Positions 6,339 to 63,082 are shown, counted from the first letter of the stretch. The stretch is 64,000 nucleotides of DNA from Mesotoga infera (GCF_900157305.1 NZ_LS974202.1:620001-684000); one strand, 5' to 3'. The notes: generated by a model from the sequence alone, not told the origin. Made by a program: numbers and translations.

Positions 6339-6506
6339 TCATATCGGAAATCTCAACTGTCCCAGCTCTTCGCTCTTTCTGAGGATCTGAACGGCGACTA
6401 GCTTTCCTTTCGAATCGAAATATTTGATCGCTTTTTCACGTCTTTTTGAATCTTCAGGACTTAATAGAATATATTCGTAACTCCCCCAGACCTTCCATCG
6501 TTTCAT
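6339..6506 (-). CDS. Small conserved-looking hypothetical protein (55 aa)
   Basis: A 55-residue frame on the minus strand, reading MKRWKVWGSYEYILLSPEDS onward and ending in QLRFPI. It has an excellent ribosome site (GGAGGGG) seven bases before the ATG at 6506, which is the main reason to call it. The sequence is soluble and mixed-charge (SPEDSKRREKAIKYFDSKGK, then VAVQILRKSEEL), with no membrane segment. It is convergent with the membrane-protein gene and ends two bases after that gene's stop. Function unknown. Confidence 0.65.
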   Translation of the reverse strand: MKRWKVWGSYEYILLSPEDSKRREKAIKYFDSKGKLVAVQILRKSEELGQLRFPI

Positions 6507-6511
6507 TTAAA

Positions 6512-6909: not shown

Positions 6910-7056
6910 ATGAGAAAGGTTGTTTTCTCGGCAGTGCTGGTACTTCTCTGTTCAGTGATTCTGGCCTCCGGCCTGTTGATGCCGGTGGTCAAACCACCCA
7001 TGATTGTCACCACTCTAGGGCAGAGTCCGGGGGCCCTGATGTTCAGATTGGTATGT
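6910..7056 (+). pseudogene. DUF6305-like secreted protein, truncated by IS200/IS605 element
   Basis: The frame begins MRKVVFSAVLVLLCSVILASG, a clear signal peptide, and continues with PPMIVTTLGQSPGALMFRLV. That is the start of the mature part of DUF6305-type secreted proteins as I remember them. It then runs directly into the right end of the transposon at 7057, so only about 49 native residues remain. The frame continues 15 more residues inside the element before a stop. The rest of the gene is not found on the far side of the element, so sequence was lost and not merely interrupted. Confidence 0.65.
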
Positions 7057-7215
7057 TTGACACTCCCCATGCCTGAAGGCAGGGGATTCTTGGGTGATTA
7101 AACCGAAGACCGTTTCTGGCATCGGAGTATGACCCCAAGTTAAGGGCTGTGTCAGCAGCCCGTCCCTAGGCAGAGCATATTAGCTCCTAGGGCTGGCAGA
7201 CTATCGCTTATACTA
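7057..7215 (-). ncRNA. Candidate omega RNA of TnpB
   Basis: In IS200/IS605 elements the guide RNA is made from the 3' end of tnpB through the right end of the element. Here that stretch holds clear stems: CCCTAGG (7164-7170) with CCTAGGG (7186-7192), GGGCTG (7144-7149) with CAGCCC (7156-7161), and the terminal hairpin at 7065-7085. The guide would begin just beyond 7057 in the truncated DUF6305 gene. The boundaries are inferred from family knowledge. Confidence 0.5.
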
Positions 7216-8299
7216 CACCATCTGCCACAGTTGCGGAAATAATATTCATCGCTCCCACTCTATCCCTGTGGGCTTTGAATCCACAACCACACACGTATTT
7301 TCTATCCTTGGCCTTGTTGTGTTTACCACATTTTGGACATTTCTGGCTTGTATATTCGGGATTAACGTATTCTACTTTAATTCCTACCAGAGTCGCCTTG
7401 TATTCTATGTACTTTGTCAGTCGATAGAAACTCCAAGGATGCAAATTTTTCTCATTTTTACGGCTTGTTTTTGCCGTGTTGCGAATATTCGTCAAGCGTT
7501 CCATATGAATAACTGCAACTTGATTTTCTTTAGCGAAATTAACAATTTGGCGGCTGATTTTGTGGTCTTGGTCTTTCATCCATCTCTGTTCCTTGTCGTG
7601 GCGCTTTTTTATAGCTTTTAGCTTTTTGAGTTTGCCGAGTTTTCGCCGTACTGAACGATGTTTGCGTCGGATAAATTTGGCCTGTCTGCCATTACCAACG
7701 AATTTGGTTTTACCTCCTTCCACAATGGCTACGGCAGGGTTTTTAAGACCTAAATCCACACCCATGATTTTATTGCTGGTCTCAGACTGTTTTTCATCTA
7801 TTTTTACGGCTATTTGGGCTATGTATTTACCTGATTTTTGCGTTATACGAAGACTGCCGAGTTTGCCGTTTAACTGTTCCCGTTGGTAGTCGGTCAGCAC
7901 TGCTTTAACTTCAATACGTTTAGACTTATCGGCAATTAATACAGGAAACGACAGGATATTTTCTTTTAGAGAATAGTTCTGGTTGTTCCAGATTGCGACA
8001 GGTTTTTTAAGAATTGGCACTCTGACTTCTCTTTGGTCTTCTGGTTTTAATCTGGCATTGGTATAAACATTCTTTTTATACTTTTTGAAAACACTTCTAG
8101 CGTCTTTTATCGCTTGGTTTTTTACTGCACTGGGAAGCTCCGCAATAACGGTTTTACTGGTATATTTAAGGGGTGCATCGGATTTTACGAAGTCTGCTAC
8201 CATTTGGTTGACCAAGCGGATGTATTCTTTAGTTGTTGCTTGAAGAAGAGACTCCTGCTCTTTAGTCGGTTCTAATTTAATCTTGACGGTGATTTGCAT
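7208..8299 (-). CDS. tnpB: TnpB, RNA-guided endonuclease of IS605 element
   Basis: A TnpB-type nuclease (Cas12 relative) of 363 residues, the usual length. The RuvC-like catalytic residues are visible as GVDLGLKNPAV (Asp), VIHMERLTNI (Glu) and HRDRVGAMNI (Asp). The zinc ribbon between them has CPKCGKHNKAKDRKYVCGC. The N-terminal half is the Lys-rich RNA-binding region. All key residues appear intact, so the protein may be active. It lies four bases downstream of tnpA in the same orientation. Confidence 0.93.
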   Translation of the reverse strand: MQITVKIKLEPTKEQESLLQATTKEYIRLVNQMVADFVKSDAPLKYTSKTVIAELPSAVKNQAIKDARSVFKKYKKNVYTNARLKPEDQREVRVPILKKPVAIWNNQNYSLKENILSFPVLIADKSKRIEVKAVLTDYQREQLNGKLGSLRITQKSGKYIAQIAVKIDEKQSETSNKIMGVDLGLKNPAVAIVEGGKTKFVGNGRQAKFIRRKHRSVRRKLGKLKKLKAIKKRHDKEQRWMKDQDHKISRQIVNFAKENQVAVIHMERLTNIRNTAKTSRKNEKNLHPWSFYRLTKYIEYKATLVGIKVEYVNPEYTSQKCPKCGKHNKAKDRKYVCGCGFKAHRDRVGAMNIISATVADGVV

Positions 8300-8303
8300 T
8301 TTT

Positions 8304-8711
8304 TCACCTCCTTTGCGAGGTTTTTTGGCTTTCGATGTACTGTTTAATTACGGAAAGCGATGCACCACCTACGGTAGCAACAAAATAACTGTTTGTCCAA
8401 AGTGTGGGCAGTTTCGTTGTCAAGTGCTTAAATTCTTGCCTAAGTATTCGTGAAGTATGACCTTTAATTGCTTTAACAAGCTTATGGACTCCATATTGCG
8501 GATCCACTTCGACAAGCAAGTGAACATGGTCAGGCATGATTTCCATTTCTATGATTTCTACTTGACGTTCGGCACAGATACTTACAATCAATTCCTTTAA
8601 TCGTAGTTCTACATCACCAACCAAAACTTTCCTACGATACTTAGGACACCACACTATATGGTACTTGCAAGAATATACAACGTTGTTGTTGGACTTAAAT
8701 TTAGTGTTCAT
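8304..8711 (-). CDS. tnpA: TnpA, Y1 (HUH) transposase of IS200 family
   Basis: A single-strand transposase of 135 residues that cuts and rejoins the hairpin ends. The HUH pair is seen in MPDHVHLLVEVD and the nucleophilic Tyr in VIKQYIESQ. The N-terminus VVYSCKYHIVWCPKYRRKVL is typical of IS200. Domains are complete and in frame, so the element looks recently active. tnpB follows on the same strand. Confidence 0.95.
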   Translation of the reverse strand: MNTKFKSNNNVVYSCKYHIVWCPKYRRKVLVGDVELRLKELIVSICAERQVEIIEMEIMPDHVHLLVEVDPQYGVHKLVKAIKGHTSRILRQEFKHLTTKLPTLWTNSYFVATVGGASLSVIKQYIESQKTSQRR

Positions 8712-8832
8712 ACATGTATTATATCATACAAAGCTATATAATACAAGCAGACAAATTGAACCAATTGAAAAACATTGTGTTTTCTAATTGATTTGTGCCT
8801 TATATCCCCATAGCTGAAGCAAGGAGCTTTAC

Positions 8833-9038
8833 GGCACTTACTGGTAATGTGGCCGATAGGCGATATCCTCCCACCCACCGCGGTGGTTGGTCGGGCCACG
8901 GTCATGGAACTGAAATTCAAAGGGCATTACTACAAAGACTTTTTGAAAACCGCGCTGATTCCAATGGGGTTCGTCTTGCTTGTCGCAACTCTCTTCCTGA
9001 TTTTCAGCAACGAGCTCTCCTTCTTGGTCGGCGGGTGA
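8833..9038 (+). pseudogene. C-terminal remnant of a membrane permease
   Basis: After the left end of the transposon a frame reads LLVMWPIGDILPPTAVVGRA and ends with a hydrophobic helix (LIPMGFVLLVATLFLIF). This looks like the last part of a multi-helix permease whose first several hundred residues are missing. A Met at 8847 exists, but no ribosome site fits it. Together with the truncated DUF6305 gene on the other side this shows a deletion next to the element. The transporter family cannot be fixed from the tail. Confidence 0.6.
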
Positions 9039-9065
9039 TGTCATGGCTGAAAGGAAGTGTTTATA

Positions 9066-9230
9066 ATGGCGATCCTAAACTCGATAATAAGCGTCTGCTA
9101 CTACCTGATAAGCGCATTTGTGGTCTTCGTGCTGGTTAAAAGCATTATAAAGACCAAGAACGTTCAAGATGCCATTCTTTACTCCGTCATGCTTATGCCC
9201 TTCATCCTGCGAATACTTCGCATAAAGTAG
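9066..9230 (+). CDS. Small membrane protein (54 aa)
   Basis: A 54-residue frame beginning MAILNSIISVCYYLISAFVV, with one or two hydrophobic helices. AAGGAAG lies about ten bases before the ATG. It ends 11 bases before the M14-like hydrolase gene and follows the permease remnant by 27 bases, so it was probably an accessory subunit of the permease operon. Its function is unknown. Confidence 0.6.
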   Translation: MAILNSIISVCYYLISAFVVFVLVKSIIKTKNVQDAILYSVMLMPFILRILRIK

Positions 9231-9241
9231 GGGGTGAAGAC

Positions 9242-10408
9242 ATGACTGATAGAAATCTATTGATCGTTAAGCTAGTCTCGCTCGCCCTCGTGGCGGTCGC
9301 CCTGGTGATCGCCGGAATTCAGTTCTACGATCACAGAAACTTCCAGGAGGAAGTGGTCAAAGGACCTGGCGTAACCCAGGTCAAGAAATTGAGCGACTAT
9401 TTCGAACCCCTGAAGGGAACTATCAACGATTGCAACATATATATTTTCGACAGCGGTGTCCCCGGAGGAACCGCCTTCCTTATCGGAAGCTCGCATCCTG
9501 AAGAACCTTCTGGCAATCTCACGGCACAGCTGTTTGTCGAGAACGCCAAGCTGACGAAGGGAAGACTGATCGTAGCGATCAGGGCCAACCAGAGCGCCTC
9601 TCGCGTTACAAGACCGGGAGATGCCTATCCCCTATATTTCGCCATCGAAACACCATGGGGAGAAAAGAAATTCAGAATGGGTGACCGTTGGTCCAGCCCG
9701 CTAGACTCATGGCCCGATCCGGAAGTCTATGTCAACTATCCCAGCGGCCAGTTACTGGCCTACATGGACGTAAGAAACTTCAACAGGACGTGGCCGGGCA
9801 GAGCGAACGGTATGATCACCGAGCAAACCAACTACGCCTTCATGAATTTGATTAAGGAAGAGGGCGTCGATATCTTCATCGATCTACATGAAGCCGAACT
9901 CGAATACCCGGTAATCAGCACCATCGTCGCTCACCAGAAGGGTGCCGACATAGCCGGTATGGCTTCCATGCTGCTCACCTCGACCGAGTTCAAGATCGGA
10001 ATGGAGTACTCTCCGAAGACTCTCCACGGACTCTCTCACAGAGAGGTCGGAGACCACTCGGATGCCGTCTCGATCTTGCTTGAAGCGCCGGAACCCTTCC
10101 TCGACAGAGTGAGAGGGATCACCGACGAGAAACTTCTTCTCACGGGACAGGATGAATTCATAGTGACGGCCGGTAAATTCGGCCTCCTCTACGAGAAGAT
10201 CGATGAAAAAGGTTGGCCAATAGACGTCAGAGTTGGAAGGCATTGCTCAACGGTTCTGATGATCTTTGAACTCTGGGGAGATTTCAACCCGGGAAAGGAG
10301 GTAGTGATCCAGGAAGTACCAAGGTACGACGAGGTAGTGAAGAACGGAACAGGATACTATTTCCGCGATCCGTCGAAGGCAAAGCCGGAAGATATTTATT
10401 ATGAATGA
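9242..10408 (+). CDS. M14/succinylglutamate desuccinylase-like zinc hydrolase
   Basis: Probably a zinc-dependent amide hydrolase of the M14/AstE-AspA fold, 388 residues. An N-terminal hydrophobic helix (residues 6-25) anchors or exports it. Candidate metal ligands are the His and Glu of GSSHPEEPSGN, which takes the place of the family's HGNE, and the His of DIFIDLHEAE. DVRNFNRTWPG resembles the substrate-binding Asn-Arg region. A GGGGGTGAAG site precedes the ATG. It follows a small membrane-protein gene and precedes two C69 peptidases, which suggests a role in using peptides or N-acyl amino acids at the cell surface. Confidence 0.75.
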   Translation: MTDRNLLIVKLVSLALVAVALVIAGIQFYDHRNFQEEVVKGPGVTQVKKLSDYFEPLKGTINDCNIYIFDSGVPGGTAFLIGSSHPEEPSGNLTAQLFVENAKLTKGRLIVAIRANQSASRVTRPGDAYPLYFAIETPWGEKKFRMGDRWSSPLDSWPDPEVYVNYPSGQLLAYMDVRNFNRTWPGRANGMITEQTNYAFMNLIKEEGVDIFIDLHEAELEYPVISTIVAHQKGADIAGMASMLLTSTEFKIGMEYSPKTLHGLSHREVGDHSDAVSILLEAPEPFLDRVRGITDEKLLLTGQDEFIVTAGKFGLLYEKIDEKGWPIDVRVGRHCSTVLMIFELWGDFNPGKEVVIQEVPRYDEVVKNGTGYYFRDPSKAKPEDIYYE

Positions 10409-10452
10409 CCGGACAGATTTGTGAGAGTACCTCACAAAGGAGGGGGTAAGTA

Positions 10453-12021
10453 GTGAAAAGGGTTCTTATAAGCATTATTCTAGTACTATCGTTCTTCTAC
10501 ACAGGTTTGATAGCCTGTACTGATATTCTCGTTGGAAAGCTGGCAACGACCGATGGATCTGTTATATGTTCTCAAACTGTTGATGGAACTTACGATTCAA
10601 GAATTCAGATAGTTCCAGCAGCCGATCATGAGCCGGGCAGCATGACTCCAGTATGGGAATGGATAGTTTATGCCGATAGAAGGCCGCTCGTACAGTTAGG
10701 CGAAATCCCACAGGTCGAACACACCTACCAGTATTTCCTTCACTCCTATCCATTTGGAAATGAGAAAGGACTTCTAATGGGGGAAACAACTCAAGGTGGA
10801 GCCAGAGCAACAGCCAACAGTCCGGATGCAATCATGACGATCGAGCAGCTTCAGGCCTTCGCACTTCAGAGATGCACAACGGCCAGAGAAGCAATACTTC
10901 TCATGGGCGCGCTCGCAGAAGAATACGGTTACAGAGAATCATGCAACCTAGGTGAGTGCATAACAATAGCCGATGGCAAAGAAGCCTGGATGTTCGAGAT
11001 TTATGGTGTTGGTCCTCTCTGGAAACCGGGCGACGGCCCCGGTGCAGTATGGGCTGCCCAGCGTGTTCCCGACGATCACATCTCCTGTAATGTAAACTAC
11101 AGCATGATCGGCGAAATTGATCCTGTAACCAAGAGACCACCCAACGTTCCTGAAAGTGATTTCTATATTTGCGATAACTATCTCGATACAGCCGTTGAAC
11201 TCGGTCTATACGATCCCGCATCGGGCGAACCATTTGTATGGAAATATGTCTATGGAAATGTTAAAGGCAAGTGGAGTTCGAGACTGTGGAGAATTTTCAG
11301 CACTCTGAATCCATCTGGTAACTGGCCATACGAGAAGACCGATGATTATCCGTTCTCTGTAAAGCCAGACGAAAAAGTTTCAGTGTTCGATATAATCGAG
11401 CTTTACCGTGATGTAATGACCGGTACCCCCGGTGACATGGAAGCCAATGAAGCCTGGCTTTACAAGAACTCAAAGGGAGAGTTGGTCAAGAGCGAACTGG
11501 CAACACCTCAGCCGGGCAGGGAATTCAGGAATCTTCTCGGTATAACCAACGTCAGGAACATCGCAGTCCAGAGCACTAGCTCCTTCTTCATCAACCAGAC
11601 AAGAGACTGGCTGCCACCTGAAATTGGCGCAATCTCCTGGTTCGGACTCGGCAACTCCAGAAAGGCCGTTGTAGTTCCTCTGTTCTGCGCTGTAAAGAGT
11701 GTTCCAAAATCTTGGACAATAGTTAACAGAAGCGATACGAAGATCGACAGAAACGCTGCTTTCTGGGCGTTCTACACTGTCGATAGGCTCTCCGGCGTGA
11801 GATATCAAGATATGATGCCGAGGGTCGATAAAGTCAGGATTCCGTTACAGGAAAAGATTTACAAATTGCAGCCCGCGGTGGAAGCGACTGCGCTTTCTCT
11901 TTATGAGACAGACCGCGAGCTTGCCATTGAATACCTCACCAGTTATGTGTCGTCCGTCATGCTTGAGGTCGAAAAGGCATACTGGGACCTCGCAGATTCA
12001 CTGATACTTAGATTACCGTAA
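10453..12021 (+). CDS. C69-family dipeptidase (PepD type), secreted
   Basis: A peptidase of family C69, an N-terminal nucleophile hydrolase. The first 21 residues form a signal peptide or propeptide, and Cys22 in LIACTDILVGK would become the new N-terminus and nucleophile. Other family marks are DGSVICSQTVDGTYDSR, MGETTQGG, TARE and WMFEIYGVGPLW. The 522-residue length fits secreted C69 proteins. The start is GTG behind AAAGGAGGGGG. A weak hairpin (12040-12061) separates it from a paralogue, so the two may be partly co-transcribed. Dipeptides are the known family substrates. Confidence 0.9.
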   Translation: MKRVLISIILVLSFFYTGLIACTDILVGKLATTDGSVICSQTVDGTYDSRIQIVPAADHEPGSMTPVWEWIVYADRRPLVQLGEIPQVEHTYQYFLHSYPFGNEKGLLMGETTQGGARATANSPDAIMTIEQLQAFALQRCTTAREAILLMGALAEEYGYRESCNLGECITIADGKEAWMFEIYGVGPLWKPGDGPGAVWAAQRVPDDHISCNVNYSMIGEIDPVTKRPPNVPESDFYICDNYLDTAVELGLYDPASGEPFVWKYVYGNVKGKWSSRLWRIFSTLNPSGNWPYEKTDDYPFSVKPDEKVSVFDIIELYRDVMTGTPGDMEANEAWLYKNSKGELVKSELATPQPGREFRNLLGITNVRNIAVQSTSSFFINQTRDWLPPEIGAISWFGLGNSRKAVVVPLFCAVKSVPKSWTIVNRSDTKIDRNAAFWAFYTVDRLSGVRYQDMMPRVDKVRIPLQEKIYKLQPAVEATALSLYETDRELAIEYLTSYVSSVMLEVEKAYWDLADSLILRLP

Positions 12022-52095: not shown

Positions 52096-52103
52096 TTGTG
52101 AGA

Positions 52104-53636
52104 TCATATAAATTTTATGGCGTTTCTTCCAGAGTTCTTTGCCTCGTATAGAGCTCTGTCGGCAAGAGAAACTAGTTCCTCGAGGGAGCCTGTGTCCTCC
52201 CTTATGGTAGTGAGTCCGAAACTGAGCGATAACTCCTGTCCATTCAGCAAAGGTTCTTTGATCTTACCTACCACCACTCTTATTCTATCTAGCACCTCCA
52301 GCGCGGCTTTTGAATCGCAACCAGGAAAAAGTATTATGAATTCATCTCCCCCGAACCTGCCAAACACATCGGACTCTCTTATATTATCCCTGACGATGCT
52401 AGTGACCTCTTTGAGAACTAAATCACCCACTTCGTGGCCGAAGGAATCGTTTATCGCCTTTAAGTTATCAAGATCGCAGACCGCAAGAGAAAGACTTTTG
52501 TTTCCTCTGGAAGCTTTGAGAAACTCGGCTTTTGCCTTGTCGAAGAAGCCTCTCCTGTTGTAAATTCCTGTCAATGGATCAGTAAGGGAGATCGTTTTCA
52601 ACTCTTCGAGGAGTTCGGCGTTGCTGAGCGATAAACCCAGAACGCTCCTGATATTTCCCAGTACGGGGAGATAGCGATCGGAATACTCTGGAAAGGCGAT
52701 TTTCGAGATCTTCAACGCTCCGAGCAATTTATCGTCATGCCGGACTTTCATCCATAGGTCTCTTCCACATTCGAGCGAGAAGATATCTTCGGGATTTTCC
52801 GGGATCTGCAGAACCTCTTCGGTGATGGTAGAACCTCTTGCAGATGAGTAAATCTCTCTCCAGCCGTCCCGAAATTTCTCGAAGAAAAGGACTTCCTCTG
52901 GAGCGAAAAGCATTTCGGCGAGCGTGGATATTTTCTCTAGGACCTCGTTCTTAGAATTCAGACTGGCTATCTCCATGAGGACTTCGTTGATCATTGCATA
53001 ATTGGCTATCTGCCTGTGGAGATCGAAATCGAACGCCTCTTCGAAAAGACCCATCTTCCGTGCTATTGTGTCGTAAACAGAGGCCAGAACAAAGTTTTTT
53101 ACATAATCAAGCCCTATATCGATCACATCTGTCGGGAGCTTTACGGCTTTGGCAAAATCGGCGAGTTCACGTTCCGGGTTTTCGATTACCCCGGTTTTAA
53201 GGTGAACGATCAATGTGGAGAACTCACTCATGAAGCTAGAGTTCTTAGAAGGATCGAAACCCCAGTTTCTCAAATGCTCTCTCCATTGAGAAAGCCAGCC
53301 ATCTGTTACCAAATAGGAATTCCTTTTTATCTGCTGTTGTAAAATAACTTTGGGAGCTAAGAGCTCCTGGCAAAAATCGTAGGCAATATGCGTTATTTCA
53401 GGTCTTTCGCGCAGGTGTTCTAAGATCGGACAGGACCTAGGAGCGAAAAGGAAGTGAAGCTTCTCGCCCGAAGAGCTCAAAACATCGTTAAGAATTTCGC
53501 GCATGCCTGACCGGGGTGAAACTTCGCACAAAGCCGGATAAAAGTAAAAACTCAGCGCTTGAAACTCTTCGCGGGTGCTAATCTCAAGCATCTCCTGCTG
53601 GAAATTGGAGCAGGCAACCACCACTATCTTCTTCAT
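52104..53636 (-). CDS. DUF1638-GAF-GGDEF diguanylate cyclase
   Basis: A three-part signalling protein of 510 residues. Residues 1-190 match DUF1638 (IAYDFCQELLAPKVILQQQI, then YLVTDGWLSQW), a domain usually found with corrinoid methyltransferases. Residues about 200-340 look like a GAF-type sensor. The C-terminal GGDEF domain is complete: LTDPLTGIYNRRGFF, NDSFGHEVGDLVL, RFGGDEFIILF. It should make cyclic di-GMP. Its ATG overlaps the stop of the UroD-like gene, so its output is probably tied to that methyltransferase and the corrinoid protein. Confidence 0.88.
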   Translation of the reverse strand: MKKIVVVACSNFQQEMLEISTREEFQALSFYFYPALCEVSPRSGMREILNDVLSSSGEKLHFLFAPRSCPILEHLRERPEITHIAYDFCQELLAPKVILQQQIKRNSYLVTDGWLSQWREHLRNWGFDPSKNSSFMSEFSTLIVHLKTGVIENPERELADFAKAVKLPTDVIDIGLDYVKNFVLASVYDTIARKMGLFEEAFDFDLHRQIANYAMINEVLMEIASLNSKNEVLEKISTLAEMLFAPEEVLFFEKFRDGWREIYSSARGSTITEEVLQIPENPEDIFSLECGRDLWMKVRHDDKLLGALKISKIAFPEYSDRYLPVLGNIRSVLGLSLSNAELLEELKTISLTDPLTGIYNRRGFFDKAKAEFLKASRGNKSLSLAVCDLDNLKAINDSFGHEVGDLVLKEVTSIVRDNIRESDVFGRFGGDEFIILFPGCDSKAALEVLDRIRVVVGKIKEPLLNGQELSLSFGLTTIREDTGSLEELVSLADRALYEAKNSGRNAIKFI

Positions 53637-54685
53637 CGAATATCTCCATTCGAGATCGGGTACTCACCCCATTTGTGCACGGCCTCGGAAATCGCCTTCA
53701 AAATCTCGTCGGAAACTTGAAAAGGGATTTCGCCATGGTTGTCCGACAAAATAAACCCCCCGCCATTTGCCCCCTGCTCGATCACTCCTCTGACAGTCTC
53801 TTCGGCTTTTTCTCGATCCCAAGATGTCATCTCAACACCGTTCAAATTGCCTATAAGCGAGAGTTTCAGTCTCGAAGCCTTCTCCTTCAGTTTCGGTATA
53901 TTCTCCAGAGCGCTGAAGCCAATCGCAACGGTTCCGGTTGCCGGCAGCAAATCTAGAATATCCATACAAAGACCTGACGCGAAATGCATCGCCACGGGTG
54001 CCTTTATTCTGGAGATAACTTCCTTCGCAATAGGGTATCCAGTAGCTTTGAAAGTTTCCACGTCCGTTATGCTGGGCGAAGAAAGAGGATCGAAATAAAC
54101 GATCGCGGTCGCTCCGGCCTCCACCTGAGCGTTTGCCCACCTCACGCTGAACTCCTTGTTGAATCTCATCAGTCTGTCGAAAAAGTCCCTATCATCGTAA
54201 AGGATATCCAGGTATCTCTCGAAGCCCATCTGCATCACCGGCAACGAAAAAGGCGAAATGACAACACCTAAGACTGGAACACCACCCCTTCCCTCCTCCT
54301 TGAGAGCATTTATCGCCTTCAACACACTCTGTAGAGGGCGGACCGTTCTCGGATCAGGCATCGCCAATCCTTCAATATCTTCGACTTTCTTTATGATCGG
54401 CTCCCCTGCATTTGGAGGTCCATCCTCGCTGTAAACTATATCGCCGCCAAACGCCTCTATCTCTCTAGCAGCGTAGAAGAAGGGAAAATAACAATCGTTG
54501 TCGTACTTTCTTCGCAGCAAGATCTGACCCCTGACAACATTCTCTGCGCTGGAAAAATACTCACGTATAGTCATGCCAAGTTCCTTCGCGCCATGCATAG
54601 TCAGAAGCAAGAAGAGCGGTACCCTGTCTGGTTCCTGAAAGCTAAGGGATTTTAAGACCCTCTCCATGGAAGTTATTTCGCTCAT
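53633..54685 (-). CDS. Uroporphyrinogen decarboxylase-family (MtaA-like) protein
   Basis: A 350-residue UroD/MtaA/CmuA-fold protein. The fold marks are MERVLKSLSFQEPDRVPLF, PVLGVVISPFSLPVMQMGFERYLD and VYFDPLSSPSI. In MtaA-type methyltransferases zinc is held by HxC and a later Cys; here the first motif is HFA (residues 234-236) and the later site reads SDNHGEIP (314-321), so the Cys ligands are missing. True haem synthesis is unlikely given the partners. It may bind a methylated substrate or the corrinoid protein without normal catalysis. Confidence 0.85.
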   Translation of the reverse strand: MSEITSMERVLKSLSFQEPDRVPLFLLLTMHGAKELGMTIREYFSSAENVVRGQILLRRKYDNDCYFPFFYAAREIEAFGGDIVYSEDGPPNAGEPIIKKVEDIEGLAMPDPRTVRPLQSVLKAINALKEEGRGGVPVLGVVISPFSLPVMQMGFERYLDILYDDRDFFDRLMRFNKEFSVRWANAQVEAGATAIVYFDPLSSPSITDVETFKATGYPIAKEVISRIKAPVAMHFASGLCMDILDLLPATGTVAIGFSALENIPKLKEKASRLKLSLIGNLNGVEMTSWDREKAEETVRGVIEQGANGGGFILSDNHGEIPFQVSDEILKAISEAVHKWGEYPISNGDIR

Positions 54686-55317
54686 CTCGAATCACCCGTA
54701 ATCTCGTTTAATATATTGATAGCCTCGGCTGCCGTCTTTCCGTATCTATCGGCTTTAACTCTTCTCCAGAGTGTTTCGTCGGCATTGAAAGGTGCACCCC
54801 CGACGACGACCTTTGTTTGGAAGCCGCTTTCTTTGAGCTCTGTGATGAAGCTCTCGATTTTCAAGGCAGAATGCAGCATCAAAACAGAGATGAGAAGAAT
54901 CTCCACATCGTATTTCTTGACTACACCGAGCAGCTCTTCGTTGCTTGAAAGCGATCCCAGATCCATTACTTCATAGCCTGAAGACCTCAGGAAACTCCTC
55001 ACTATCCTCTTCCCGAGAGTGTGTCGATCGTACAGCGTCACAATCGCAATACGTGCACCGTCTTTCTTCTCATGCTCTATATCTCGGGTGAACTCATCCA
55101 AAAGACGTTCAGAGATCTTACCTGCAATATATACCTGTGAAAGCGAGGCTCTTCCTTCTGCCCAGGACCGGCCTATTCTCTCCAGCGCATCTATCAGGTA
55201 ACTGTCAACAGCCATCTGCAACCCTTGTTCTGACACGATCAGCCCGAACTGTTTACTGACTCTGGAATAACTTGCTGAAAGAAGCGCTAATTCCAGATCA
55301 CTCGAAGTTATATCCAC
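54682..55317 (-). CDS. Corrinoid (B12)-binding protein, MtbC/MttC type
   Basis: A methyl-carrier type corrinoid protein of about 211 residues. An N-terminal helical cap (DLELALLSASYSRVSKQFGL, WAEGRASLSQVYIAG) precedes the Rossmann domain with the lower-ligand motif DRHTLG (DxHxxG), then LLISVLMLHS and VVVGGAPFNADE. I set the start at GTG 55317, with AGGAG eight bases upstream; the frame continues to 55371 without a ribosome site. It is the first gene of a coupled operon with the UroD-like and GGDEF genes. Confidence 0.88.
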   Translation of the reverse strand: MDITSSDLELALLSASYSRVSKQFGLIVSEQGLQMAVDSYLIDALERIGRSWAEGRASLSQVYIAGKISERLLDEFTRDIEHEKKDGARIAIVTLYDRHTLGKRIVRSFLRSSGYEVMDLGSLSSNEELLGVVKKYDVEILLISVLMLHSALKIESFITELKESGFQTKVVVGGAPFNADETLWRRVKADRYGKTAAEAINILNEITGDSR

Positions 55318-55371
55318 CTCAACCACTCCTGTGAAAAGAGAACTATCTCGTTTATTCTCTATTTTACACAA

Positions 55372-55678
55372 AGAGTATGCAAAGCAGTGCCACTGACTCT
55401 ACAATTCTGGACAGTTGACCGAGTAATGCATCAAAATAGAATCTATTCAGTTATCAGGTCTATGCTCATAGGTCATCGCTATTACCTTCCTGGATGCAAG
55501 ATGTTCTAGCCCAAATGGGCCTCGTAGGCTTTAACGCAGGACGATGGACGGCTCTTCCCGCTCTTCCGCTCTTCACACCTCTCCCCTGTCTCGTCCTCTC
55601 TCCACATCTCGTGCTCTCTGAATACAAAATATGTTATATTATCAGTATATAAATATGTTTACTCGGTGGTGATATATC
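55372..55678. other. Intergenic region between the corrinoid operon and MazEF
   Basis: No gene is seen. About 55538-55620 holds a fragment of the repeat-block tail (GGACGATGGACGGCTCTTCC then a polypyrimidine run), so this junction is a reduced repeat block. AT-rich sequence at 55625-55665 probably holds the MazEF promoter (several TATA-like boxes, none with a clear -35). Confidence 0.5.
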
Positions 55679-55930
55679 TTGAAGACGCAGATCGTGCGAA
55701 TTTCATCCGAAACTCACTCCAGACTTAAGGCCATGGCTTTGGCCAGCGGCGAAACGATAGGGGAGATTCTGGCTAAAGCGGTAGATGCATACAGACGGGA
55801 AATGCTTCTAAACGACGCCAACAGAGCCTTTGCAAAACTAAAAGAAAGGGAAGAACTCTGGAAGGATGAACAGAAAGAGAGAGAAGAGTGGGAAACGGCG
55901 CTCGCAGATGGACTGAAGAAAGATGAATAA
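55679..55930 (+). CDS. MazE/RHH-like antitoxin
   Basis: An 83-residue protein with a ribbon-helix-helix-like N-terminus (QIVRISSETHSRLKAMALASGETIGEILAKAVDAYRRE) and a charged, likely disordered C-terminus that would wrap the toxin. The start is TTG 55679 behind GGTGGTGAT. The toxin gene overlaps its end by eight bases. It should repress its own operon and neutralise the MazF-like protein. Confidence 0.88.
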   Translation: MKTQIVRISSETHSRLKAMALASGETIGEILAKAVDAYRREMLLNDANRAFAKLKEREELWKDEQKEREEWETALADGLKKDE

Positions 55931-56270
55931 CCTACCTTCCAGAGGTGAAATCTGGCTGGCGAACCTGAACCCGGTCAGAGGTAGAGAACAGGCCGGTTTT
56001 CGACCATGCCTGGTAATTTCCGTTGACCAGTTCAACCACGGACCGGCAGAACTCGTGATCGTAGTTCCAATTACATCAAAAAACAAATCCATCCCCCTTC
56101 ATGTTGAGATATCCGGCAAAGAAACCGGGCTTGATCTCACAAGCTACATCAAGAGCGAAGACATAAGATCCATATCTAGAGACAGACTGGAAAAGAGAAT
56201 TGGCAGAGTCTCGGAAGAAGTAATGTGCCAGGTCCTCGAACTCATAAAAATACTTCTCGATATAACATAA
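55923..56270 (+). CDS. mazF: MazF/PemK-family mRNA interferase
   Basis: A 115-residue toxin of the MazF/PemK fold. RGEIWLANLNPVRGREQAGFRPCLVIS is the family signature, and VVPITSKNKSIPLHVEI and LTSYIKSEDIRSISRDRLEKRIG complete it. The Arg in GREQAGFRP and a later Thr/Ser region supply the ribonuclease site, which appears intact. It cuts mRNA at short sites when unbound. ATG 55923 lies inside the antitoxin gene end. Confidence 0.93.
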   Translation: MNNLPSRGEIWLANLNPVRGREQAGFRPCLVISVDQFNHGPAELVIVVPITSKNKSIPLHVEISGKETGLDLTSYIKSEDIRSISRDRLEKRIGRVSEEVMCQVLELIKILLDIT

Positions 56271-56309
56271 TAGGTGATCGAGGATAGATCTTACATCTGA
56301 CGAAAATGT

Positions 56310-57215
56310 GCACTGACGGGCTCCTGACGTCTGTCCCGTTTTTCGCAAAGAACGGGATCCTGGCTGGGAGCACGCCAGGATGACGTGAGGGGAGAGCCTG
56401 CCCTGAAATGCTCCTATTCAGGGTCATCCCGTGTCATCCCGTAATACCCCGCTATTGTCATCCCGGGCTTCGACCCGGGATCTCGCTCTTTAGTGCCCCC
56501 GTACTGTCATCCCGTAATAGCCTGTCCTGATATGATCGAATTCAGGACTCCTATACGGGATCCCGTTCTCCCGCTCTTTCGAAGGAGCGGAGATGCCGGA
56601 TCAGGTCCGGCATGACGGGAAGGGACTGTCATCCCGTAATGTTCTTATACGGGATCTCGTTCCTTAGTACTCCTCCGCCGTCATCCCGTAATAGCCTGTC
56701 CTGATATGATCGAATTCAGGACTCCTATACGGGATCTCGCTCTTGCTCTTTCGAAGGAGCGGAGATGCCGGATCGGGGTCCGGCATGACGGCAAGGGACT
56801 GTCATCCCGTAATGTTCTTATACGGGATCTCGCTCTTCCCGCTCTTGCTCTTTCAAAGGAGCGGAGATGCCGGATCAGGTCCGGCATGACGAAAAGGAGC
56901 AAAGACCGCGAAAAACCGCGTTTTTCGCGTTCTAGACCCTAGACCCGCTGCTCGTGTCTCGCCCTCTCACCTCTGGTTCCGCTCTTCCCAAGGACGGGTC
57001 CGCGCTCCGGGACGAAGGACGATGGACGGCTCTTCTGCGTGAGAACCATAGTGGTATGTTAGGAACCGTGGTGGGTTGTGCGTTGTAGGTTGTTGGAAAG
57101 AACACTTATACGAATCTCGTTCTTACCAGACCCTATACCCCAAACCCCACACACGGTTCTTTCCGCTCTTTTCGCTCTTTCGAACCAAGAACAAAGCTCC
57201 TAGCTCTGCAACAAA
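56310..57215. repeat. Palindromic repeat block R10
   Basis: A large block: class E, the CCCTGAA hairpin, class B, two GTCCTGA...TTCAGGAC hairpins (about 56524-56552 and 56697-56725), three class C units (about 56591, 56766 and 56866), several class A units and the CGCGAAAAA hairpin. Here the CCC heptamer tract has only two units (56937-56946) instead of four. The part 56958-57172 is nearly identical to 61320-61534 before the other AbiE pair. Confidence 0.9.
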
Positions 57216-57335
57216 CAACCGCTCTTACTAAAAATGGAGTCGCTATTTTCTTATTTCACTTGACATTGATCACCTAAAAATATAAAATATATTTACTATA
57301 TGCCAATAGATGTCAACTAACAGAGAGGGGATCAA

Positions 57336-58139
57336 GTGAGATTAGAACTGTTTTTTGAAGAATCACCGGTCTTCACGACTCATGAACTAAAAGAATTCCT
57401 GAAGAAGAATAAATCTAAGAGTCTTGAGAACTACAGCGTTCTTCTGAATTATCACGTTAAGAGAGGCCGGATCCTCAAAATCTGTCGTGGTCTCTACGCA
57501 GTAGTACCTCTAAACCAAAAGGCAGAACAATTCAACCCTGATTCATTTCTCGTTGCAGCAAAGAGAACAGAGGATGCGATTCTTGCCTATCATACGGCTC
57601 AGGAATTCAATGGGAATACCTACTCGCTTTTCAACACCAGAACATTCTTGACAATGAAGAGTGTGCGTCCTTTAGTATTCAGGGAAATCGAATACATTCC
57701 GACTCACCCCTCTCAGAAACTGCTTCGCTCAGACAACTACTTCCTACTCACGGAACAAGTGGATATAAAAGGCATAAACGTTTTTATAACCAGTAGAGAA
57801 AGAACCTTTGTAGATATGCTCGATCGACCCAATCTATGTGGCGGAATTGAAGAGGTCTGGCGTTCTCTCAAAATGACCGAGTATCTAAACACCGAAAACC
57901 TGCTGAAGTATCTGAAGGCACTTGGCAACTCTACCACGAGCGCCAAAGTTGGCTTCTTCTTACAAAGACATCCGAGCATCATAAAAAATGACCAAACTCT
58001 ATTGAGAGAACTAAAAAAAATGATCCCCGTTTCGCTGCATTACTTTGATCGATCACGAGTTGAAAGGGCCAAGTTGGTAAAGGAATGGAATCTCGTAATT
58101 CCTGAAAACATATTGAATGAAAGGTGGGAAGAGCGATAA
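57336..58139 (+). CDS. abiEi: AbiEi antitoxin (AbiE system 1)
   Basis: A 267-residue AbiEi-type regulator. The N-terminal winged helix (FFEESPVFTTHELKEFLKKN, LNYHVKRGRILKICRGLYAVVP) binds the promoter; the C-terminal domain follows with ITSRERTFVDMLDRPNLCGGIEEVW. In AbiE type IV toxin-antitoxin systems it represses the operon and counteracts the nucleotidyltransferase toxin. The toxin gene overlaps its end by 16 bases. A GAGGGG site precedes the GTG start at 57336. Confidence 0.9.
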   Translation: MRLELFFEESPVFTTHELKEFLKKNKSKSLENYSVLLNYHVKRGRILKICRGLYAVVPLNQKAEQFNPDSFLVAAKRTEDAILAYHTAQEFNGNTYSLFNTRTFLTMKSVRPLVFREIEYIPTHPSQKLLRSDNYFLLTEQVDIKGINVFITSRERTFVDMLDRPNLCGGIEEVWRSLKMTEYLNTENLLKYLKALGNSTTSAKVGFFLQRHPSIIKNDQTLLRELKKMIPVSLHYFDRSRVERAKLVKEWNLVIPENILNERWEER

Positions 58140-59101
58140 GGATATCCAGAGAGACCCTGTCCAGATTATCCGGTCAGACGGGTTATCGGCAGGAGATTAT
58201 TGAGAAAGTCTCGCTACTGCTTTCGTGGCTTGACCGCGCATCAAATATCGATCGTCTTGTAGGAAGTTTCGCTCTAAAAGGGGGGACGGCAATAAATCTG
58301 TTCTTCCTGGAAATTCCAAGATTATCGGTAGATATAGATATCAACTATATTGGATCCCCCACTCGAGAAGAACTCGACCGTGACAGAAGCGGTTTTGAGA
58401 AAATCATAGAATCAGTCTGCCTCGAAGAAAGCCTGTCCATAAGAAACAAAAGGGATTCAGAAGCAGCTACCTCTTATTCATTGAGGTACGTGAGCTCCCT
58501 ATCTTCTGGAGGAAACCTATCTATTGATATAAACTACATGATGAGAATTCCACTGTTTGAAATTGAGACAATGGATTCAAGGCAGCTAGGTAGTCAAATA
58601 GCCCGCAGAGTCCCATTAGTAAACAAGCTGGAAGTTTTCGCCTCGAAAATTGCGGCCTGCTTTTCGCGAGAAACAAGCAGAGACCTTTATGATGTATATC
58701 TACTTGAGAAGCAAATAAGCACCCTTGACCTTGAAAAACTCCGGCTTGCCTTTACGGTTTTCGGGGGAATGAATCGAGAAAACTGGCTCGAAATAGATGA
58801 AAAAACACTTCGAGTAAACGAAAATGACCTGAAAAAGCGATTGCTGCCACTTCTAAGGGGTACACTTGACAAAGAAAAGCTCGAAACTCTTGCCAGTGAT
58901 ATCGAAAATTCTTGCCAGAAAGTAGTCTCCTACTTGCTACCTCTGAACGACAATGAAAGAGAATTCTTAAGAATCCTAAACGAAAAAGGGGAGATCAAAC
59001 CAGAAATCATTACCGACGACAAAGAACTGGCAGATAGAATCAAGAAACAGCCTATGCTCAAGTGGAAAGCACTAAACATCAGACAAACCTTTCAAGGCTG
59101 A
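58124..59101 (+). CDS. abiEii: AbiEii nucleotidyltransferase toxin (AbiE system 1)
   Basis: A 325-residue nucleotidyltransferase. The core FALKGGTAINLFFLEIPRLSVDIDINYIG holds the GG and DxD metal site, and NKLEVFASKIAACFSRETSRDLYDVYLLE is the second family motif, with the catalytic Lys. AbiEii proteins block growth and abort phage infection. It has a GTG start inside abiEi behind GAAAGGTG. All motif residues appear present. Confidence 0.93.
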   Translation: MGRAIRISRETLSRLSGQTGYRQEIIEKVSLLLSWLDRASNIDRLVGSFALKGGTAINLFFLEIPRLSVDIDINYIGSPTREELDRDRSGFEKIIESVCLEESLSIRNKRDSEAATSYSLRYVSSLSSGGNLSIDINYMMRIPLFEIETMDSRQLGSQIARRVPLVNKLEVFASKIAACFSRETSRDLYDVYLLEKQISTLDLEKLRLAFTVFGGMNRENWLEIDEKTLRVNENDLKKRLLPLLRGTLDKEKLETLASDIENSCQKVVSYLLPLNDNEREFLRILNEKGEIKPEIITDDKELADRIKKQPMLKWKALNIRQTFQG

Positions 59102-59124
59102 TCAAAGAAGACTCGTCAACTGTA

Positions 59125-59320
59125 ACGCCCTTCTACTGTCATCCCGTGTCATCCCGTAATGCTCACCCTTATGTCATCCCGTAATGGTTCTATACCGTCA
59201 TCCCGGGCTCCGACCCGGGATCTCGCTCCTTAGTGTTACTCCGCTGTCATCCCGTGGAGCCTGTCCTGAAATGCTCTTATTCAGGACTCCTATACGGGAT
59301 CTCGCTCTTCCGTTAAATCT
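59125..59320. repeat. Palindromic repeat block R11
   Basis: GTCATCCCGT half-modules, class B (about 59199-59224) and a TCCTGAA...TTCAGGA hairpin merged with class A (about 59260-59300). It leads straight into the second GIY-YIG copy with the same junction sequence as at 50903. Confidence 0.85.
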
Positions 59321-59577
59321 CTCCTGGTACTTAAGATCTTGGTGTATTATTCATTCATTAAAGAATTTCTATAATTTGAGGTGATGCTTTGAATTCAGGG
59401 TTTGTGTACATAATGACAAATCCTTATAGAACAGTGTTCTACATTGGAGTCACCAATAATCTCTTCCGAAGGGTCCAAGAACACAAAAATAAAACAGTAG
59501 AGGGCTTTACCAATACTCAACTTATGCACTTTGACTTAACCTAAAGAAGGAAATAGAACAGGGTCATTGAAAAAGGC

Positions 59578-59631
59578 ATGAAATCATCGTATATTCGTGG
59601 TGATCAGACCATACGAAAGGATGATTTCATG
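59578..59631 (+). promoter_or_regulatory. Hairpin covering the transposase start codon
   Basis: ATGAAATCATC (59578-59588) pairs perfectly with GATGATTTCAT (59620-59630), and inside it CGTAT (59588-59592) can pair with ATACG (59611-59615). The right arm contains part of the AAAGG ribosome site and the A and T of the ATG at 59629. In a transcript entering from outside the element this would hide the start. Confidence 0.65.
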
Positions 59632-60723
59632 CCCACAACGAATATATCACAGATTATCTCGGATGTCATCGGTTCAGTTCGCTTCCTACGTATAGAGCAG
59701 AGAAGGTTTGTTGAAGGGTATTCCTGTGCCCTCTTCCTGTCCGCTCATAAGAACACCAGCAGACTGGCCCCCTTCTGTTCTTCTTCTCAGTCATCCATCT
59801 CGAGAATGTTGAGCTCTCAGTCACTCTCCACAAGAGACCTTTCATACGCGAGAGTAGATTACATCTCTAGATTCCTCCAGGAGTATTCTCTCGAGTTCAA
59901 GTACATCATTCTGGACGAGACTGTCATGAAGAGGAGAGGAAAGAGAATCGAGAATCTCGGGAAGTTCTACTCAACCATAGAGAATAAAATCGTGAGCGGT
60001 GTCTCTCTCTTGAGCGCTATCGGCTGGGTGAAAGATAAACTCTACTTCCCTCTCTTCTCCTCTTTGAGAGACGAAGAGAATCTCACAGACCAGTTCATTC
60101 GAATGCTAGAGAGGATACCTTTCAAAGATACTATCCTCATGATGGATGGAGGAATACTCTGCTCGGAGATATTTCTGAAGGCTATGGAAATGGGGTTCAC
60201 AGTAATCGGAAGACTCAACCCTGTGATGAATGTTATCTTTCAGGGGCGCAAGCTCCATCTGTCCAAACTGAGAAACAAGACTCGCGGTCTCTCTTCTATC
60301 ATTGTGAAGATACCCAAATACAACAATGCCACTGTCAAGCTTGTCTTCCATAACACAGACCAAGAGAACAGAATCATCCTCTCAAGCGATACTTCTCTGA
60401 CCGATTGGGAGATCCTTGAGCATTATAGGAAGAGAAACTACATCGAGACCTACTTCAAAGCAGTCAAGCAGAACTTCGGTCTCAAGGCCCAGGTCTTCTC
60501 CTCTACCAGTTTTCAGAAGCATGTCGAACTTGTCCAGCTTGCCTTCACTACATGGATGATCGCCAACTTCTATCGTTCTGTCAAAGACCAGGTCTCTCTC
60601 AGGGATTTCCTTGAACTGATCAAATTCGATTACTTCTTCCAATTAGCTCGAAGCTCTTCCGCTAGCGATTCTTCTATCCACTTCCTTCTTCCTCGCTTTG
60701 TTAACTCGAAGTGCATAAGTTGA
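59629..60723 (+). CDS. DDE transposase of the 1209-bp IS
   Basis: A transposase of about 364 residues (ATG 59629, AAAGG upstream; ATG 59578 is an alternative that would be part of the hairpin). The catalytic acidic residues are seen in YIILDETVMKRRGKRI (first Asp), DTILMMDGGILCSE (second Asp) and HYRKRNYIETYFKAVKQNFGL (Glu with the Y-R-E-K spacing of IS4-type enzymes). The stop codon is inside the right terminal repeat. No frameshift is seen, so it may be active. Confidence 0.92.
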   Translation: MPTTNISQIISDVIGSVRFLRIEQRRFVEGYSCALFLSAHKNTSRLAPFCSSSQSSISRMLSSQSLSTRDLSYARVDYISRFLQEYSLEFKYIILDETVMKRRGKRIENLGKFYSTIENKIVSGVSLLSAIGWVKDKLYFPLFSSLRDEENLTDQFIRMLERIPFKDTILMMDGGILCSEIFLKAMEMGFTVIGRLNPVMNVIFQGRKLHLSKLRNKTRGLSSIIVKIPKYNNATVKLVFHNTDQENRIILSSDTSLTDWEILEHYRKRNYIETYFKAVKQNFGLKAQVFSSTSFQKHVELVQLAFTTWMIANFYRSVKDQVSLRDFLELIKFDYFFQLARSSSASDSSIHFLLPRFVNSKCIS

Positions 60724-60934
60724 GAATAAGTACAACTGCACTATCGTTGTCTATTACGAATTCTTTGAAAGAATCTCGGATGCTATCAGAAGAGAAAAAC
60801 AACTGAAGAGCTGGAAAAGAGAATGGAAGCTACAGCTAATTAAAGAAAGAAACCCGGATCTTCAAGACCTTTGGGAAGAAATTAAAAACGGTTACTGATA
60901 AAAAGAACAAGATACAGGACTTAACTTGATGAAC

Positions 60935-61555
60935 CAGGCCAGGCCGGAGTGTTAAAATCTCTGCGAAAAACCGGGACTCGCGAAAGAGCAGTTCTTCTTT
61001 GCGGAGCTAGAAGCTTTGTTCTTCGTTCTTGGTTAGAAGCAAAGACCGCAAAAATGGGTCGCGAAGAGCGAGATCCTGGCTGGGAGCACGCCAGGATGAC
61101 GCGAGGGGACTATCATCCCGTAGTGTCCCCATGGAGCCTGCCCTGAAATGCTCCTATTCAGGGTCATCCCGTGTCCAATCTCGTAATACCCCACTAATGT
61201 CATCCCGGGCTCCGACCCGGGATCTCGCTCTTACTCTTTCGAAGGAGCAAAGACCGCGAAAAACCGCGTTTTTCGCGTTCTAGACCCTAGACCCGAAACC
61301 CGAGACCCGCTGCTCGTGTCTCGCCCTCTCTCCTCTGGTTCCGCTCTTTCCAAGGACGGGTCCACGCTCCGGGACGAAGGACGAAGGACGGCTCTTCTGC
61401 GTGAGAACCATAGTGGTATGTTAGGAACCGTGGTGGGTTGTGCGTTGTAGGTTGTTGGAAAGAGCACTTATACGAATCTCGTTCTTACCAGACCCTATAC
61501 CCCAAACCCCACACACGGTTCTTCCCGCTCTTCCTGCTCTTTCGAAGGACGGTCT
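60935..61555. repeat. Palindromic repeat block R12
   Basis: Starts with CCAGGCCGGAGTG and the GCGGAGCTAGAAGC tract as at 51326, then class E, the CCCTGAA hairpin, class B, the CGCGAAAAA hairpin and the full CCC heptamer tract (61285-61308). The last 215 bases (61320-61534) match 56958-57172 upstream of the first AbiE pair. No gene is supported in it. Confidence 0.9.
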
Positions 61556-61652
61556 CCTAACATATTTTTCTATTTCTCAAGTATTGACTTTAATGCACAC
61601 AAACGATACAATTATATGCGTAAATGATATTCGCTTTTGTAGGAGGTGATAT

Positions 61653-62246
61653 ATGTCCTATATCAACAAGATTCTAGACGTCGCGCGTAAAAACAACGGT
61701 ATAGTAACATCGAGACAAATCACAGATGCGGGGATAAACCGTCAGTATTTGAGAATTCTTGTAGAAAGGGGCCTTCTCGAAAGATCAGCACGCGGTGTTT
61801 ATATTATTCCTACGATTCTTGACGATGAGATGTTCAACCTCCAAAACCGCTACAGGCGGGGGATCTTTTCTCACGGAACAGCACTATTCTTGCTTGGTTT
61901 GACAGATCGAACCCCGATCAAGTATTCAATGACATTTCCGATCGGCTATAATACCTCAAATCTAAAAGAAGAAAATGTTGAATACTATCGCGTCAAAGAC
62001 GGGTTATACGAACTTGGTATAACCACGACAAAAACTCCTAATGGCAACGAGGTAAGGGTCTATAATGCAGAGAGAACACTGTGCGACACTCTAAAGGGAC
62101 GAAGTCATACAGATATACAGATCATCAGCGAAGCATTCAAGAGATACGTAAAACTGCTCAATAGAGATATTCCATTGATTTCAGAATACGCAAAGCTCAT
62201 GAGGGTAGAAAAGAAGCTTCGGGCTTATTTAGAGGTGTTACTTTGA
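61653..62246 (+). CDS. abiEi: AbiEi antitoxin (AbiE system 2)
   Basis: A 197-residue AbiEi-like protein with the N-terminal winged helix NNGIVTSRQITDAGINRQYLRILVERGLLERSARGVYIIP and the domain containing SHGTALFLLGLTDRTP and VYNAERTLCDTLKGR. It is distinct from the copy at 57336 and shorter. AGGAGGTGAT precedes the ATG. It represses and antagonises the downstream toxin in this system type. Its end overlaps abiEii by four bases. Confidence 0.9.
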   Translation: MSYINKILDVARKNNGIVTSRQITDAGINRQYLRILVERGLLERSARGVYIIPTILDDEMFNLQNRYRRGIFSHGTALFLLGLTDRTPIKYSMTFPIGYNTSNLKEENVEYYRVKDGLYELGITTTKTPNGNEVRVYNAERTLCDTLKGRSHTDIQIISEAFKRYVKLLNRDIPLISEYAKLMRVEKKLRAYLEVLL

Positions 62247-63082
62247 AGAATTCGATGCAGCTGAAAGCGATCGTTAAGAACATGGCTAAAAGCAAGAAAA
62301 TCTCCGCTCAGATTGTCCTGCAGAACTATATGCTGGAGCGTTTGCTGGAAAGAATTTCATTATCACGCTACCAATCGAACTTCATCTTGAAAGGTGGATT
62401 TCTTATCGCGTCAATAGTAGGCCTTGATACAAGAGCGACCATGGATATAGACGCGACCATTAAAGGGCTAAAGATTAATGCAGAAAGCATACAGAACATG
62501 CTGAACGAGATTTGTGCGATAGAAATTAATGATGAAGTCATTTTCTCGCTCAGAAGGATTGAAGAGATACGTGAGAGTGCAGATTATCATGGATTCCGCG
62601 TAGCCCTGGAAGCGGTGTACCCTCCGATAAAAGTACCTCTGAAAGTTGATATCACCACAGGAGACATCATCACGCCAAAAGAAATCAACTACGAATTTAG
62701 ACTGCTCTTCGATTCCCGGAGCATCAGAATACTTGCATATAACCTGGAGACGATAATGGCCGAGAAACTAGAAACAACGATAGCAAGAGGAAATCAAAAT
62801 ACTCGTCCCAGGGATTATTACGACATCTATATAATTCGCAAACTGCAGTGGCAAAACATTGATCCGCGTACTCTGAAGGAAGCTTTGCTCAATACCTGCC
62901 AAAGCAGAGGAACTATAAACATAATTAAGCGCTATGACGAAATACTAAAAACGGTCCAGACCAGCGATGCAATGAGTGAGTTCTGGAAAGATTATCAGAA
63001 TCAGTTCGATTATGCCAGAGATATCGGATTCGATCATATCTGTCATACAATAAGAGAAATACTTAACGATATTCTAGAATAG
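62243..63082 (+). CDS. abiEii: AbiEii nucleotidyltransferase toxin (AbiE system 2)
   Basis: A 279-residue nucleotidyltransferase with ILKGGFLIASIVGLDTRATMDIDATIKG (GG and DxD site) and LETIMAEKLETTIARGNQNTRPRDYYDIYII (second motif with catalytic Lys and Asp). It is clearly a different subfamily from system 1: shorter and with Thr-Met-Asp-Ile-Asp at the metal site. The start is TTG 62243 overlapping the abiEi stop, with AGAGGTG upstream. Confidence 0.93.
   Translation: MKNSMQLKAIVKNMAKSKKISAQIVLQNYMLERLLERISLSRYQSNFILKGGFLIASIVGLDTRATMDIDATIKGLKINAESIQNMLNEICAIEINDEVIFSLRRIEEIRESADYHGFRVALEAVYPPIKVPLKVDITTGDIITPKEINYEFRLLFDSRSIRILAYNLETIMAEKLETTIARGNQNTRPRDYYDIYIIRKLQWQNIDPRTLKEALLNTCQSRGTINIIKRYDEILKTVQTSDAMSEFWKDYQNQFDYARDIGFDHICHTIREILNDILE

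Follow-up and report, generated by a model that had tools for sequence, protein, structure and literature searches.

A candidate corrinoid-based sensory input cassette shared by Mesotoga infera and bacteria of at least seven phyla

Introduction

Corrinoid proteins and methyltransferases of the UroD fold have so far been known as metabolic machinery, and the question raised by a locus of Mesotoga infera is why genes for such proteins should be coupled to one for cyclic di-GMP synthesis. In this locus, a gene for a B12-binding protein is followed by one for a protein with the UroD/MtaA fold (hereafter URO) and then by one for a protein composed of DUF1638, GAF and GGDEF domains. The original prediction, made from a window of 64,000 nucleotides (GCF_900157305.1, NZ_LS974202.1:620001-684000; "the window" below), was that the set is less a methyl pathway than a sensor in which the state of the corrinoid or its methyl group controls cyclic di-GMP synthesis. 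The GGDEF proteins hitherto known to have a B12 domain are photocobilins (PMC11796333), and a census of the stimuli of cyclic di-GMP signalling in 2022 lists no cobalamin or corrinoid input (PMC8846402). In the full-text open-access literature, furthermore, we found no published description of such a set. We have examined the three proteins by profile, alignment and structural model and compared the set among genomes.

Results

Organization of the locus

The three genes are co-directional on the minus strand (Table 1), and both junctions are the ATGA overlaps that had been proposed to couple them. The corrinoid gene begins with GTG and is preceded by a Shine-Dalgarno sequence, AGGAG, at 55326-55330, 8 nt upstream of the start; an alternative in-frame TTG is located at 55371. 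A scan for promoters and terminators gave nothing that clearly exceeded shuffled sequence. The three genes have no further companion: a PemK/MazF toxin pair lies on one side and a GIY-YIG gene on the other, and AbiE pairs and a transposase occur in the region. An accessory island adjoins the cassette at 55679-63082, in which a PemK/MazF toxin and its small partner are accompanied by two pairs of AbiEi/AbiEii genes and by a DDE transposase. A related MAG has a set with 94% identity; aligned with it, the window matches over 52101-55421 at 91.5% identity, and the match ends at both edges, beyond which the flanks are unrelated. Because the alignment is thus confined to the cassette, the three genes move or persist as a unit.

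Table 1. Features of the cassette, with positions counted from the first nucleotide of the window
Feature	Position	Strand	Evidence
Corrinoid (B12) protein, first gene	54682..55317	-	GTG start 55317; B12-binding Pfam 7.2e-18
DxHxxG cobamide His-ligand motif (DRHTLG)	55012..55029	-	D115, H117 and G120 invariant, 22 aligned
URO, UroD/MtaA-fold protein, middle gene	53633..54685	-	URO-D Pfam 8.8e-54
URO residues 234-236 (HFA), place of HxC in MtaA-like enzymes	53978..53986	-	H234 45/45; Cys at 236 0/55
URO residues 314-321 (SDNHGEIP), place of the second zinc Cys in MtaA-like enzymes	53723..53746	-	H317 44/45, E319 44/45, D315 43/45
DUF1638-GAF-GGDEF protein, third gene	52104..53636	-	Pfam, TIGR00254, AlphaFold and Foldseek
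DUF1638 domain, residues 1-185, Cys 9, 37, 69 and 89	53082..53636	-	Alignment of 42 sensor proteins
GAF-type domain, residues ~205-340	52617..53024	-	AlphaFold model and Foldseek matches to many GAF structures
GGDEF (diguanylate cyclase) domain, active site and RxxD I-site intact	52113..52598	-	TIGR00254 6.4e-48; RESDVFGRFGGDEF

The corrinoid protein

Among solved structures, the corrinoid protein is matched best by 4jgi (8.5e-13), and its matches also include 8j2y, a photocobilin-type GGDEF protein with a B12 domain. The DxHxxG motif had been read as intact, and indeed its Asp, His and Gly residues are kept in all 22 aligned sequences, with the motif being present in 54 of 55 B12-protein matches. 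Ser162, Leu164, Gly191 and Gly192 are also conserved, which completes the His-on motif set, DxHxxG...SxL...GG. By motif, the protein is predicted to be a His-on corrinoid protein of the methyltransferase type.

In the B12 domain of CarH-type photoreceptors, a capping motif, W-x9-EH, is expected. At the corresponding place (W+10/+11), 44 of the 55 B12 matches read VY or IY and none reads EH, and we have therefore rejected a B12-dependent light sensor comparable to CarH or photocobilins, which we consider very improbable. While B12 domains with a GGDEF output do occur in photocobilins (8j2y; PMC11796333) and some bacteria carrying the cassette (Allochromatium and Viridilinea) are phototrophic, Thermotogota are not phototrophs, and the known photoreceptors contain neither a URO partner nor DUF1638.

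URO and its remodelled zinc site

The AlphaFold model of URO (pLDDT 95.6, pTM 0.93) shows the UroD-type barrel fold; its best match in the PDB is MtaA (4ay7; TM 0.85, E 2.6e-20), and uroporphyrinogen decarboxylases rank below. The profile scores of URO fall below the cut-offs of both families, namely 90.5 bits against the curated 235.4 for MtaA/CmuA (TIGR01463) and 50.1 bits against 302.95 for HemE, the uroporphyrinogen decarboxylase (TIGR01464).

The tripeptide HFA at 234-236 and the sequence SDNHGEIP at 314-321 are exactly as predicted. An alignment was made of 45 members of the URO subfamily and six further UroD-fold proteins, which were taken both from the same genomes and from others. At the place of the first ligand, HIC-G in the MtaA-like controls corresponds to H-x-A-S-G in the subfamily; at the second, the controls have Cys in the same column as His317, where the subfamily reads D-N-H-G-E-I-P. 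A Cys residue at 236 or 317 was sought in 55 URO sequences of the subfamily and its sister sets and found in none, and other UroD-fold proteins of the window's genome retain the zinc Cys. As judged from these alignments, the loss of both Cys ligands is real, old and uniform across the subfamily. The prediction that the zinc ligands are replaced is thus borne out for the two Cys residues but goes too far for the site as a whole: His234 is kept throughout, and the nearly invariant His317 takes the place of the second Cys, so that the aligned site is better described as remodelled, with two potential metal ligands remaining, than as simply lost. Asp315 and Glu319 neighbour His317 and are conserved to a similar extent (Table 1). 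A metal site could be formed from His234, His317 and Glu319, and methyl transfer may still take place. Even the His residues are gone from the sister sets L117, L124-126 and L128, which have Tyr, Phe or Leu at 234.

We have rejected decay of URO as a pseudogene, since the changes are uniform among the 45 sequences of the alignment and the reading frame is open. Thirty-two polar positions are nearly invariant, many of them unlike those of the MtaA-like controls in the alignment, which suggests one specific ligand.

The DUF1638-GAF-GGDEF protein

The GGDEF domain of the third protein is clearly recognized (Pfam 3.2e-44; TIGR00254 162.6 bits) and has both its catalytic motif and the RxxD I-site intact (RESDVFGRFGGDEF); by these motifs, the protein is a predicted diguanylate cyclase. 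The GAF domain gave no Pfam match and was recognized from an AlphaFold model covering residues 1-340 (pLDDT 86), to which Foldseek matched many GAF structures. In the window protein, DUF1638 (PF07796) scores 24 bits against the Pfam cut-off of 27, and the same domain in relatives scores 27-52 bits, several above the cut-off.

Cys9 is invariant among the 42 sensor proteins that were aligned; Cys37 and Cys89 are each kept in 41, and 40 have a Cys within 66-70. Stand-alone DUF1638 proteins (L182, L117, L128 and L181) have Cys, His, Cys and Cys at the same four places. The four-Cys site in the sensor proteins is probably a metal site, to go by its conservation. These Cys residues, together with the change of one His in the stand-alone proteins into Cys in the sensors and the anaerobes and sulfur oxidisers among the carriers, could also speak for a redox or gas (NO, O2 or CO) sensor, in which the DUF1638 site and the cobalt change state and URO merely caps the corrinoid. 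We nonetheless consider such a sensor unlikely, as the strongly conserved URO pocket suggests a specific ligand and not a mere cap.

In Phaeobacter, B12-dependent methionine synthesis requires a DUF1638 gene as well as a RamA-like one (PMC5764234), and in Ruegeria, growth on methylated amines is accompanied by an increase in a DUF1638 protein (PMC12478193). From these associations, we infer that DUF1638 would be a natural reader of corrinoid proteins.

Distribution of the cassette

The search of other genomes for the three-gene set found the same first two genes at 49 loci in 48 genomes, with DUF1638 at 48 of the 49 loci. A gene order shared by 49 loci is far beyond chance. The carriers belong to Thermotogota, Gamma- and Alphaproteobacteria, Spirochaetota, Bacillota, Chloroflexota, Bacteroidota and Nitrospinota, i.e., at least seven phyla, where phyla were inferred from the centre genome of each search. 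With centre genomes included in the counts, members of the URO subfamily were found in 10 of 103 genomes of Thermotogota at 1e-20 (one of the ten being a sister set), in 25 of the 195 genomes searched in the order of Allochromatium, and, sister sets included, in 4 of 296, 4 of 299 and 7 of 251 genomes of the phyla of a Spirochaetales record, a Clostridiaceae record and Viridilinea, respectively. Further carriers are records of Nitrospinota, Bacteroidota, Alphaproteobacteria and Thiodiazotropha.

The URO subfamily is sharply bounded: against a profile built from the first set of homologues, members score 522-572 bits and the next UroD-fold proteins below 155 in eleven carrier genomes, with the sister sets elsewhere scoring 305-410 bits against the same profile. 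On the URO tree, the subfamily forms one branch with a support of 100, within which phyla are mixed (11 changes of phylum, compared with the least possible 7).

Constant input and swapped outputs

Architecture was recorded for the 49 core loci of the 48 genomes. The corrinoid gene precedes URO in 48 of them, the exception (L030) lying at a contig start, and DUF1638 follows URO in all except L107. The output after DUF1638 is GGDEF in 25 loci (in a separate reading frame in L129) and a histidine kinase in 21, either fused (18 loci) or encoded by the next gene (L022, L116 and L118). In L027, DUF1638 has no adjoining output gene, and in L104 the contig end cuts the set. The GGDEF motifs are mostly GGDEF, GGEEF or GGEEL; the kinases belong to more than one family (HExRT and HHRxKNN types) and have their phospho-acceptor and ATP motifs, and fused-kinase proteins often have REC and Hpt as well. 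The URO tree demands at least six switches between GGDEF and kinase. A fixed input with interchangeable outputs is what characterizes a sensory module, and the comparison of sequences shows a constant three-part input, swapped outputs, a zinc site that has been remodelled and inheritance of the set as a unit. L107 and L027, which lack DUF1638 and an adjoining output, respectively, were counted against a sensory reading.

Each set has one URO except for L023 of a gamma symbiont, in which two tandem corrinoid-URO pairs precede one DUF1638-HK-REC-Hpt protein and a REC-GGDEF gene (2559-6041); this layout suggests two inputs to one kinase. The genome with L023 holds another set, L127. In L116 (G488:C266, 945-2465), URO and DUF1638 are in a single open frame; we have set aside a fusion here, as the C-terminus of URO is missing and DUF1638 is split from GAF, which makes an assembly error possible.

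Several sister sets have other arrangements. In the genus of the window, L128 (G025:C356:1-10000, 119-4082) encodes a corrinoid protein, a URO without any zinc ligand, a stand-alone DUF1638 protein and a GAF/HD-GYP-type protein (HHERQNGSGYP). By its motif, the HD-GYP domain is the opposite cyclic di-GMP output, breakdown versus synthesis. In L124, L125 and L126 of Chloroflexota (e.g., L125:4718-7701), a corrinoid protein and a URO with neither His234 nor His317 are followed directly by a histidine kinase, with no DUF1638. L117 has B12, URO, DUF1638 and a histidine kinase with REC. L181 of Thiodiazotropha (G109:C14:9000-25000, 6091-11507) represents a third sensory clade, in which B12, URO and DUF1638 are followed by two HK/REC genes; its URO has the sequence MHHVGG and lacks Cys ligands.

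Neighbouring genes, activases and methyltransferases

Among 98 flanking genes near the sets, the commonest families are response regulators (8), GGDEF (7) and PAS (6), and corrinoid methyltransferase families were absent from the 25 commonest. No methyl-acceptor enzyme recurs beside the cassettes, and MtaB/MtbB-type enzymes, which were sought next door, are no constant companions of the set. An enzyme of the MttB family occurs in only 1 of 48 carrier genomes. A RACo/RamA activase was seen within none of the cassettes and is found in 14 of 49 carrier genomes but absent from 35; the window's genome has one about 146 kb away, with which reductive activation is possible there. Owing to the scarcity of Ram and MttB and to the swapped outputs, a plain methyl pathway has been rejected as the main reading.

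The proposal that no substrate-specific methyltransferase is present is weaker than stated, because some proteins of the UroD fold are themselves substrate methyltransferases, as exemplified by the O-demethylases OdmB and VdmB mentioned in PMC10418091. With this precedent, the set might instead be a trigger enzyme, an active corrinoid methyltransferase like the O-demethylases, in which URO demethylates a substrate to the corrinoid protein while the DUF1638 protein reports the flux or reactivates the corrinoid and also signals. OdmB and VdmB act on aryl methyl ethers and are expected to have a zinc motif of their own. The fully intact corrinoid motif, the link of DUF1638 to B12 reactivation (PMC5764234) and a possible alternative metal site formed by the conserved His, Asp and Glu of URO all fit such an enzyme. 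We regard it as unlikely, however, given the sparse activases and the lack of a recurrent methyl acceptor described above; also, the sister sets without His at 234 retain kinase or HD-GYP outputs.

Discussion

The cassette is very probably a dedicated signalling system. That a sensor, rather than a methyl pathway, is encoded finds strong support in the constant corrinoid-URO pair, the swapped outputs, the universal loss of Cys, the signalling neighbours and the rarity of MttB. The best reading of these sequences is an undescribed modular corrinoid-based sensory input cassette, and a modular sensory system taking its input from corrinoid methyltransferase parts is, in full, a likely explanation. 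That the state of the corrinoid is what is read is somewhat less certain but still favoured. We lean slightly towards a new class of input, in which a separate corrinoid protein and a remodelled receptor of the methyltransferase fold would sense a specific metabolite through the ligand state of cobalt, and the metal site of DUF1638 would pass the signal on to outputs that can be exchanged (cyclic di-GMP synthesis, HD-GYP and kinases) in at least seven phyla, with spread as a cassette.

As a mechanism, the URO barrel would bind a small molecule and the cobalt of the corrinoid protein would physically dock there. The ligand or substrate in URO would decide whether the cobalt is methylated, coordinated or shifted in oxidation state. 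DUF1638, with its four-Cys and probably metal-binding site and with stand-alone relatives that serve corrinoid proteins, would then read whichever of these states is relevant, and the signal would pass via GAF to the output, in the window protein to cyclic di-GMP synthesis, in either direction. Alternatively, substrate turnover by URO and the corrinoid protein may have persisted, and the third gene might do no more than regulate it.

If the sensory reading is true, the machinery of corrinoid methyltransferases has become a general sensor for several signalling pathways, and DUF1638 gains a function as a reader of corrinoid proteins. With its outputs swapped, the same input is open to study in cultivable bacteria such as Allochromatium and relatives of Mesotoga, where the signal is directly testable.

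Any novelty lies in how the input system is put together, its parts all coming from known families or superfamilies. With MtaA, MtbA and CmuA (TIGR01463; 4ay7), URO shares the fold, a corrinoid partner and the His residue at the first zinc-ligand position; unlike them, the URO subfamily has both zinc Cys residues replaced and is coupled to a signalling output gene instead of a methyl pathway. The type 1 mlp gene clusters, which are widespread in anaerobes, also combine UroD-superfamily proteins with a corrinoid protein but hold at least two Mlps and a Ram/RACE activase and have no output (Kountz and Balskus, PMC10418091); the cassettes usually have one URO, no Ram and an output domain, and hence differ from such clusters in both the number of Mlps and the activase. 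Photocobilins and CarH (8j2y; PMC11796333) likewise associate a B12-binding domain with GGDEF or other outputs, but the domain is in the same chain and light is sensed, whereas in the cassette the corrinoid protein is encoded separately, is of the methyltransferase type and is accompanied by a UroD-fold partner and DUF1638. Finally, the accessory DUF1638 (PF07796) proteins, PGA1_c13340 of Phaeobacter (PMC5764234) and SPO2162 of Ruegeria (PMC12478193), have in common with the third protein the association with corrinoid genes and Cys at three of the four places, while in the cassette the domain is fused to GAF and GGDEF or a histidine kinase and has Cys, not His, at place 37.
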